In this document: positions 2,950 to 4,561 of the stretch, one piece after another | Layout: every line of letters begins with the position of its first letter | How positions within the stretch are numbered: position 1 is the first letter of the stretch | From: Thermococcales archaeon 44_46 | Lineage (GTDB): Archaea > Methanobacteriota_B > Thermococci > Thermococcales > Thermococcaceae | Assembly (NCBI GenBank): GCA_001507935.1 | Contig: LGET01000030.1 | Location: 1 to 12,167 of the forward strand | Length of the DNA: 12,167 nt | Reading direction: 5' to 3' | Notes under the pieces: generated by a model | What the model was told of the DNA's origin: nothing | The model's database searches: none | The model's input: the letters and a program-made list of their open reading frames with translations, nothing else | Program-made: the position numbers and the translations under genes

Positions 2950-3366
2950 ATGGTTAAGGAAACCATCATCTGCTACGGGCATGAAAACGTAAAGGCAACC
3001 CACCGCTCAACGCTGGAAATAACGAAGGAGGATTACCTAACGCCAAGGGGAGACTGCATAATATGCATAAAAGCCAACAAAGCTCTTAGAGACCTAAGTG
3101 ATGAGTTAAAAGAAGCCCTGAAAAAAGGCAGAAAAATAAAAATAAGGATAATTGTTGATGATATTGTTGATGAGCTTGAGGCACTTGGAGATGAGAGGCT
3201 GAGCTTTGAAAGTGAGGTTTCTATGGTGATAAGAAAGAGCGACTACGTTGATGGGAGAACCCTTGCAATAAGGGCAAACAAGGCAGCGAAGGACATTAAA
3301 AGGGAACTCGTGGAGAAGCTGAAAAATCCGGGGCAGGAAGTGATTGTTGAGATAATTGTGGAATGA
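2950..3366 (+). CDS. DUF371 family protein (function unknown)
   Basis: A 138-residue protein of the archaeal DUF371/COG2090 family, for which I know of no established function. Visible features are GHENVKATHRSTLEITKED at residues 10-28 and LTPRGDCIICIKANKAL at 30-46. A second half echoes the first, with VSMVIRKSDYVDGRTLAIRANKA at about 90-112. The repeated small-polar plus ANKA pattern hints at an internal duplication. There are no membrane segments or signal peptide. The ATG lies about 26 nt after the TATA box, consistent with a leaderless message. The adjacent, divergent gene is ribosomal protein S17e, but that does not define a role. Confidence 0.85.
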   Translation: MVKETIICYGHENVKATHRSTLEITKEDYLTPRGDCIICIKANKALRDLSDELKEALKKGRKIKIRIIVDDIVDELEALGDERLSFESEVSMVIRKSDYVDGRTLAIRANKAAKDIKRELVEKLKNPGQEVIVEIIVE

Positions 3367-3390
3367 TAAAATTTGAGGTAAGGTTCTTAT

Positions 3391-3404
3391 CGAAAGATTT
3401 TTAT
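3391..3404 (+). promoter_or_regulatory. BRE/TATA promoter of the ATPase gene
   Basis: CGAAAG (3391-3396) followed by the T-rich box TTTTTAT (3398-3404) places the start of transcription near 3427. The box's downstream edge touches the first of three palindromic repeats, and the predicted start falls in the centre of the second. Confidence 0.5.
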
Positions 3405-3451
3405 TACATAGAACGTAATTTACATAGGGTGTAAATTACATGGTATGTAAA
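3404..3451. repeat. Three tandem 16-bp palindromic repeats (operator-like iterons)
   Basis: Unit 1 is TTACATAGAACGTAAT (3404-3419), unit 2 TTACATAGGGTGTAAA (3420-3435) and unit 3 TTACATGGTATGTAAA (3436-3451). All three fit TTAC-N7-GTAA, with centres at 3411, 3427 and 3443, exactly 16 bp apart. Unit 2 extends to perfect 8-bp arms around a 5-bp spacer, and unit 3 has perfect 6-bp arms around 3 bp. The array runs from the TATA box through the predicted transcription start, an AGGGTG ribosome site and the ATG of the ATPase gene. It looks like a cooperative repressor binding array, with sites about 1.5 helical turns apart. No other copy was seen in the window. Confidence 0.85.
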
Positions 3452-4561
3452 AACTTTTTCAGCACTAGACCTATTATGGAGGAGGAGTGCCTTTGGGGAG
3501 GAGGGCATAGAAATACAGCTGAAAAACTTTTTCAAGCAGTTCTGAGAGGGAATATTTCTGTTCTCTTGGGCCCGAGGCGTGTAGGAAAGACGAGCGTTGT
3601 TAATGTGATCGCTGAAAAGTTCACAAAACGAAGAAACCATCACTACATCTACTTCAACTTTTCTCGCTTCATTGGTGCTAGGGCTATTTCGATATCCGAC
3701 ATAGAGCCAAAAAGAACATCTCTAAGACTTATAACCATGAGTAAGAGCTACGCCCTTTCCCTTCGCGGAATTTCTGTCGAAGTTAGGAAGACAAGCATAG
3801 AGGAGTTTACTTCTGACTTTTCTACTCTTGTAAGGGTGCTGTCTCAAAACTCGGCAAGAGGACTCCTTATTTTTGACGAAGCTCAGGTGCTTGCTAGATT
3901 GAAAAATTTGGATTTTCGTGGTTTACTTCAGGAGATAACGGACAGTTATCCGAACATATCCCTGATTTTTACAGGCTCAATGCCCGGTCTACTTATGGAG
4001 TATTTGAATCCCGATGCCAGTAAGCCAAACTTTATGCGCTCGGCCGAGATATTTACACTCCCGCGCTGGAGCGTGATGGAGGGCGTAGAATTTTTGAGAA
4101 GAGGTTTTGAAACCTATGATCTTAATGTAAAAAATGAGCTCGAACTTGAAAGGGCTGTAAGGGAGCTTGGAGGCGTTCCAGGCTTTGTTTCTTATTATGG
4201 ATTAACTGTAACAAACCTTGTAAGGAGGGGAGTTGCTGTAGAAAAAGCTCTTCCAAGGGCACTGGAAGAGAGCAGAAAATATGCCCTTGATGAGTGGAAA
4301 AAGGATTTGGAAGCTTTCTTGAACGTTTACAGTAGCCCCATTTATGTTGAGGTGCTTAGAGTCCTCGCTAATGCATATCCCAGCGCACTTAGGGGGGCGG
4401 AGGTTTATAGAGAGCTTGAGAAGGAAGAAAAGGCACCTAGGAGAATTCAGCACATCTACAAGTATCTAGACACTCTTGAAAAAGCAGGGTTCATACGTTC
4501 GGAAGGAGGAAGATATTGGATAGAAGATCCCCTTCTTAGGGTTCTTCTGATGTCTCCCTAA
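3440..4561 (+). CDS. Archaeal STAND-like P-loop ATPase with C-terminal winged helix
   Basis: A 373-residue member of the archaeal ATPase family (PF01637-like; PH/MJ/SSO-type relatives of STAND NTPases), which is expanded in Thermococcales and largely of unknown role. Walker A is GPRRVGKT (44-51). Walker B is LLIFDEAQ with Asp146-Glu147. LIFTGS (175-180) serves as sensor 1. Between Walker A and B lies an unusual stretch (about 65-125) with little resemblance to the family that I can see. Residues about 310-372 form a probable winged helix (EVYRELEKEEKAPRRIQHIYKYLDTLEKAGFI), and there is no C-terminal nuclease domain. The ATG at 3440 is preferred over ATG 3476 because the FFSTRP segment matches the family N terminus and an AGGGTG site lies about 8 nt upstream. 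That start lies inside a palindromic repeat, which suggests autoregulation. Confidence 0.8.
   Translation: MVCKNFFSTRPIMEEECLWGGGHRNTAEKLFQAVLRGNISVLLGPRRVGKTSVVNVIAEKFTKRRNHHYIYFNFSRFIGARAISISDIEPKRTSLRLITMSKSYALSLRGISVEVRKTSIEEFTSDFSTLVRVLSQNSARGLLIFDEAQVLARLKNLDFRGLLQEITDSYPNISLIFTGSMPGLLMEYLNPDASKPNFMRSAEIFTLPRWSVMEGVEFLRRGFETYDLNVKNELELERAVRELGGVPGFVSYYGLTVTNLVRRGVAVEKALPRALEESRKYALDEWKKDLEAFLNVYSSPIYVEVLRVLANAYPSALRGAEVYRELEKEEKAPRRIQHIYKYLDTLEKAGFIRSEGGRYWIEDPLLRVLLMSP

Follow-up and report, generated by a model that had tools for sequence, protein, structure and literature searches.

The question raised by this locus is why short palindromes in strict phase cover the promoter and the start codon of an ATPase gene, and which protein might read them. 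The locus lies in a window, i.e. the whole stretch of 12,167 nucleotides that was analysed, from a member of the Thermococcaceae, and the array was followed from this window to its orthologues, its paralogues and its ATPase-less copies in other genomes.

Results

The window sequence contains the pattern TTAC-N7-GTAA three times in register, as 15-bp units with a period of 16 bp that span 3404-3450, have their centres at 3411, 3427 and 3443 and are separated by a single T or A. Unit 1 (TTACATAGAACGTAA, 3404..3418), unit 2 (TTACATAGGGTGTAA, 3420..3434) and unit 3 (TTACATGGTATGTAA, 3436..3450) are strandless features defined by the sequence and the shuffle count. The triple pattern occurs once in the window and was given by 0 of 200 dinucleotide shuffles, while single units numbered three against 0.14 expected, a count that no shuffle reached. 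The paired pattern has a single place in the window's own assembly (1.70 Mb, 79% complete), and the reversed control has none. The three phased dyads at 16-bp centres that the original prediction had described were confirmed, with starts at 3404, 3420 and 3436, and the end of the array was corrected from 3451 to 3450. The predicted unit TTAC-N7-GTAA is present, but the better unit across genomes is TTACAY-N3-RTGTAA, from which window unit 1 departs at one position; the letters conserved between genomes are TTACA and TGTAA.

A putative TATA-like box, TTTTTAT (3398..3404, plus strand), abuts unit 1, and a putative Shine-Dalgarno-like AGGGTG (3426..3431, plus strand) lies 8 nt 5' of the ATG, both read from the sequence. 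The ATG of the ATPase gene (3440-3442) is within unit 3 (TTAC-ATG-GTATGTAA), an overlap that had also been claimed before. Judging from the position of the TATA-like box, transcription would be expected to start inside unit 2, and the array appears to have the layout of an operator placed between the TATA box and the start codon of its own gene. The first ATPase codons, immediately behind the array, contain an inverted repeat of 26 nt (3449-3474 and 3507-3532, 32 nt apart, 77% complementary).

The ATPase gene (3440..4561, plus strand) encodes 373 aa and matches AAA_14 (PF13173, E 2.3e-11, 44.3 bits) and ATPase_2 (PF01637, E 1.8e-10, 41.5 bits), both over the curated cut-offs of 27 and 33.2 bits, respectively. 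Profile A1 matched solved relatives nearly full length (2qen, E 6e-99; 2fna, E 6.9e-78), and the window ATPase alone was aligned with 2fna and 2qen over residues 34-368 and 25-370, respectively, a full-length similarity by which it is predicted to be an SSO1545-type AAA+ ATPase. The putative C-terminal winged-helix region (residues about 302-357; 4343..4510, plus strand) resembles PF21100 (MCM_C wHTH), a profile that the window ATPase matches weakly (E 0.015, below the profile's cut-off); at E up to 0.5 it is matched by 31 of 51 family members, the best of them at 3.1e-14. The presumed recognition helix, RRIQHIYKYLDTLEKA, was assigned by eye in the alignment to about residues 334-349 (4439..4486, plus strand). 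No transposase, nuclease or recombinase domain was found in the window ATPase, in which only ATPase/AAA Pfam matches were obtained at E 0.001. Assignment to a known anti-phage defence system is doubtful, since the NCBIfam search gave no match and the best PADLOC match, PDC-S01 (E 9.6e-9), covers residues 23-63 only. The upstream neighbour encodes DUF371 (PF04027; 2950..3366, plus strand) and the downstream neighbour DUF4147 plus MOFRL (PF13660, PF05161; 4595..5947, plus strand), according to Pfam. On the minus strand of the window, a 67-aa frame (2643-2846) matches ribosomal protein S17e (PF00833, E 1.2e-15), and a 374-aa frame (56-1180) has no Pfam match at E 0.001.

The original prediction had proposed a search of the Thermococcales for at least two units at 16-bp spacing. 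The array of this type, referred to as A, was searched as two copies of TTACAYNNNRTGTAA at 16-bp spacing with ≤3 mismatches, and turned up at a single place per genome in 39 of the 94 Thermococcaceae genomes, with 0 for the reversed pattern. The orthologue set comprised the best 28 loci (L023-L050, 59-100% identity, including the broken copies L030, L046 and L050): all 28 carry a unit at the start codon, and 27 carry three units with ≤2 mismatches each, L044 having one. The middle unit of most orthologues is TTACATGGGGTGTAA or close to it, and all 26 group-A rows that were read retain the N-terminus MxCKNxF, even at about 57% identity. Perfect single A units in 18 author-picked genomes fell within the array in 35 of 37 cases, and the two located elsewhere compare with three for the reversed control, so that a scattered A-type regulon was rejected for these genomes. 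Arrays missing from orthologous loci, or lying at random positions, had been named as outcomes contrary to the original prediction, and neither was found. In the window and its nearest relatives the group A gene is downstream of the DUF371 gene; in others it is flanked by YigZ (UPF0029) and a helicase gene of the MrfA type, and further contexts occur too. One genome without an A array has a fragment with a stop and 68% identity to ATPase residues 72-222 (G013:C1:1705306-1705758).

Across 115 genomes of the phylum, matches were listed for 80, every one of them in the same family; of 11 genomes from outside it that were searched with PF01637, 3 were above the cut-off. Sixty-three paralogue loci were chosen among the matches listed, and 61 of them gave a tblastn match with about 27-40% identity; the resulting dataset has 87 rows, including 26 of group A, which are not independent of each other (L022 and L138, for example, are identical). 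The sampled paralogues carry paired dyads between the TATA box and the start codon, and the half-site varies by clade. Read by eye, these regions have the first dyad in contact with a T/A-rich TATA-like box, and the last dyad contains the start codon or ends just before it. The operator groups, set by eye after the start regions had been read and with related rows inside each group, are A (TTACA-N5-TGTAA, 26 rows), B (GTTACA-N4-TGTAAC, 3 rows), C (GTGA-N7/8-TCAC, 9 rows), D (AGTAT-N7-ATAC, 5 rows), E (ACTTG-N8-CAAGT, 13 rows), F (ACTTA..TAAG, 9 rows), G (GGAC..GTCC around CCCC..GGGG, 5 rows), H (GGCTCA-N4-TGARCC, 3 rows), I (TGGAAG..CTTCCA, 6 rows), J (GTATCG-N4-CGATAC, 1 row) and K (ACCTG-N3-CAGGT, 2 rows), with 5 rows of other operators. 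With a pattern-free two-dyad score, 67 of the 87 family start regions reached 11 or 12; the other mechanical ORFs (≥180 aa) did so in 5 of 104 cases and the shuffled regions in 3 of 87.

The half-site type largely follows the protein tree. In a quick protein tree, the rows of A, B, D, E, H, I and K cluster by group, as do those of F apart from L154; C is not separated from D and shares one clade with it, and G takes in L095 and L165, both without a clear operator. The alignment showed that the presumed recognition helix is near-constant inside groups and different between groups: RxQHxYKYL in A, SNPKLARVL in B, SERRAKxVL in C, SxVRIKNxL in D, NDxNFSxLL in E, NDAKFSxLL in F and SDRSLxRIL in I. 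The similar helices of E and F go with the half-sites ACTTG and ACTTA. L154 is the exception, having an F-like operator with neither an F-like tree position nor an F-like helix. This locus (G093:C33) has the F-like operator at both gene ends, and its protein sits on a long branch beside J (L174).

In some groups the gene carries dyads at its 3' end as well. The E pattern (≤1 mismatch) was found in 31 of 94 genomes with a control of 0, and in six of these 31 it occurs twice, exactly 1121 bp apart, one copy 5' and one copy 3' of the E gene, with the stop codon inside the second copy. Among six further E genes, the right array is present in L209, L210 and L224 (with a one-base gap) and absent from L220-L222. 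When own-type 3' units with ≤2 mismatches were scored over the 87 rows, leaving out J, K and the other operators, they were found in E (6/13), F (7/8 testable) and G (2/5, with a third at 3 mismatches), and were absent from A (0/26), B (0/3), C (0/8), D (0/5), H (0/3) and I (0/6). The background in the rows of other groups was 4/59 for A, 0/82 for B, 4/80 for D, 6/72 for E, 7/77 for F, 0/79 for G, 0/82 for H, 1/79 for I and 26/77 for C, the pattern of which is too loose for this scoring. In L206-L211 an extra inverted repeat of varying letters, e.g. around AACCTTTGCGCAAGCAAAGGTT in L206 and AAACTTTTCGCCAGAAAAGTTT in L207, lies about 30-60 bp 5' of the E left array and precedes the E promoter.

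Arrays without an adjacent ATPase were found for both A and E. Eleven of the 39 A-array genomes fall outside the 28 orthologue genomes; G067 and G070 have ATPase fragments at the A array, and G088 resembles, by eye, the remnant of an ATPase gene start. A solo A array lies between YigZ and the helicase gene in eight genomes (G019, G027, G069, G074, G079, G081, G093 and G116), and G075 is a ninth solo allele, with the spacing changed by 1 bp. Two or three perfect TTACA-N5-TGTAA units are present in seven of these nine alleles and one in each of G075 and G079; G065 keeps half a unit, and G079 and G093 have damaged units. The 14 other YigZ/helicase loci read had no unit, and G112 looks degenerate by eye. 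A single-gene YigZ tree of 39 rows, in which 17 of 36 inner branches are weak, interleaves the solo and full alleles. Between the members of two related, author-chosen solo pairs, 0 of 50 half-site positions and 4 of 25 core positions have changed, against a divergence of 17% and 10% over the aligned loci. Choosing the pair G069/G075 would have brought in the spacing change, and conservation of solo arrays is over-counted because the loci were found by motif. A long hairpin between neighbouring units was rejected as a conserved feature, since the solo cores are often non-complementary (by eye, e.g. G116). Solo A arrays at L009, L010, L058, L062, L065, L070, L102 and L112 have TTTTTAC at their left edge and GTAAAAA at their right, and sit between two convergent genes, as if amid two U-tract terminators.

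The helicase query, taken from G019, matched over all 485 residues in the solo alleles G019, G081 and G116, whereas it matched to 477 or less in the full alleles, so that simple deletion of the ATPase gene would not yield these three solos; allele exchange between species could be the source of this difference. In the solos G027, G069, G074, G075 and G079 the match stops at 476-477. Nine E-type loci (L212-L219 and L223) have no adjacent E ATPase by tblastn, and they carry two perfect units each except L215, which has one. In the alignment, L212 and L214 consist of the left flank, the array and the right flank, and L216 retains about 115 bp that can be aligned to the 3' end of the E gene. Deletion between direct repeats would produce such solo E alleles.

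Discussion

The array is probably a private operator of its ATPase gene, to which the ATPase itself would bind and by which it would regulate its own expression. Dimers of the ATPase would most likely bind the 15-bp dyads cooperatively through the presumed C-terminal winged helix, and with the 16-bp step adjacent units would face almost opposite sides of the DNA helix. Because the array spans the TATA box, the expected transcription start and the start codon, binding would block initiation; an occupied array would then mean autorepression, and a ligand or the nucleotide state of the ATPase could lift it. With transcription expected to begin inside unit 2, the palindromes make most sense as sites on DNA. 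The family has probably spread in the Thermococcaceae with this plan unchanged and with the half-site specific to each clade, and since one plan goes with clade-specific half-sites, each ATPase would control mainly itself. The site of a cooperative protein tied to PF01637-type ATPases, as originally predicted, fits these results; ATPase binding, cooperativity, repression and the signal are what we infer from them. The original prediction, drawn from one instance only, had missed the dependence of the operator type on the paralogue, the 3' dyads of three groups and the arrays without an ATPase. These last two weigh against autoregulation, being superfluous for self-control: regulation explains the 5' arrays, but it does not alone explain the 3' dyads and the solo arrays. 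The cautious account of the solo arrays would be an operator whose gene has been lost.

The 3' dyads and solo arrays could also belong to a self-targeting cassette, an explanation that we consider unlikely, in which the array is an attachment or homing site and the ATPase recognises it and aids entry at solo arrays, so that the arrays would double as operator and homing site of a one-gene mobile element, whose AAA+/winged-helix ATPase gene, without nuclease or transposase, would stand next to its array or be flanked by two copies of it and would have diversified into clades with private sites. It is similarly doubtful that the solo arrays are empty or vacated sites, and that across species they have been kept as such under selection. 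Homing of a cassette to its array would cover 5' arrays, 3' dyads and solos alike. It would suit the paired E arrays of 6 of the 31 E-pattern genomes, which flank the gene at a distance of exactly 1121 bp and hold the stop codon in the right copy, the own-type 3' units of E (6/13), F (7/8 testable) and G (2/5), and the flank-array-flank alignment of L212 and L214. Group A adds nine genomes in which a solo array occupies the position taken by array plus ATPase in relatives, the interleaving of solo and full alleles on the YigZ tree and the several genomic contexts. On the other hand, the window ATPase lacks a nuclease, transposase or recombinase domain, so that there is no known enzyme for homing, passive deletion between direct repeats gives solo E alleles (L216 keeping its part of the gene 3' end), the A-type 3' unit is missing from all 26 A rows and no movement was observed. 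Carriage by viruses or plasmids was rejected, as none of 27 pattern matches in viral contigs was a relative and plasmids and phages gave no match.

That another host DNA-binding protein reads the arrays, with the ATPase genes as its targets and the solo arrays as its remaining sites, seems to us quite improbable. The persistence of A arrays in genomes without an A orthologue would suit such a protein, as would the unchanged half-sites (0/50) of two solo pairs whose flanks differ by 17% and 10%, but a single protein must then read many half-sites that vary with the ATPase clade, and the count of conservation is inflated in loci found by motif, decay being seen in G065, G075, G079 and G093. Control of translation by RNA hairpins around the ribosome-binding site and the start codon is very unlikely. 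In its favour, GGGGTG or GGTG stands about 7-9 nt 5' of the start codon in several groups, and stem-loops with a G-rich loop could form from many of the units. With the start expected in unit 2 from the TATA-like box, however, unit 1 and part of unit 2 would be left untranscribed, and the inner pair of unit 1 is often C facing A, a combination that does not pair in RNA. A known structured RNA element was rejected for window positions 3200-3700, where no Rfam match reached the gathering threshold.

If the preferred reading holds and each paralogue binds the array of its own gene, genome sequence alone would provide a table of protein-operator pairs, from which the recognition code of this winged helix could be read. 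The bracketed genes and solo arrays pose the question of self-regulation with gene loss versus a site-directed mobile ATPase gene.

No description of these arrays was found in the titles or abstract starts among the matches listed in open-access papers, and the literature search found no DNA target for SSO1545-type ATPases (PDB 2fna; 2qen, 'Walker-type ATPase'), whose solved members the window family matches nearly full length by profile. LTR- or IS-like elements have terminal repeats and leave solo repeats. The group E gene would partly resemble them, being bracketed by repeats in some genomes, with solo repeats at the same locus, but it differs in having no transposase or recombinase and in repeats that are tandem dyads including operator-like sites and the stop codon; group A, compared with a transposon layout, has 5' arrays and solo arrays only. 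The Orc1/Cdc6 initiators combine AAA+ with a winged helix and have repeated ORB sites beside the gene. The window ATPase shares with them AAA+ and the repeated sites beside the gene, and has a putative winged helix, whereas its array covers the gene's own promoter and start codon. For NLR proteins, PMC4599002 discusses how such ATPases are structurally related to Cdc6/Orc1. The window dyads, lying between the TATA box and the start codon of the putative regulator's own gene, are laid out much as in autoregulation of the Lrp or TrmB type. The Lrp and TrmB families include autoregulated archaeal repressors with operators that overlap the TATA box or the start site. Unlike these, the putative regulator described here would be an AAA+ ATPase with a C-terminal wHTH, and its operator would consist of 2-3 phased dyads with a half-site that varies by paralogue.
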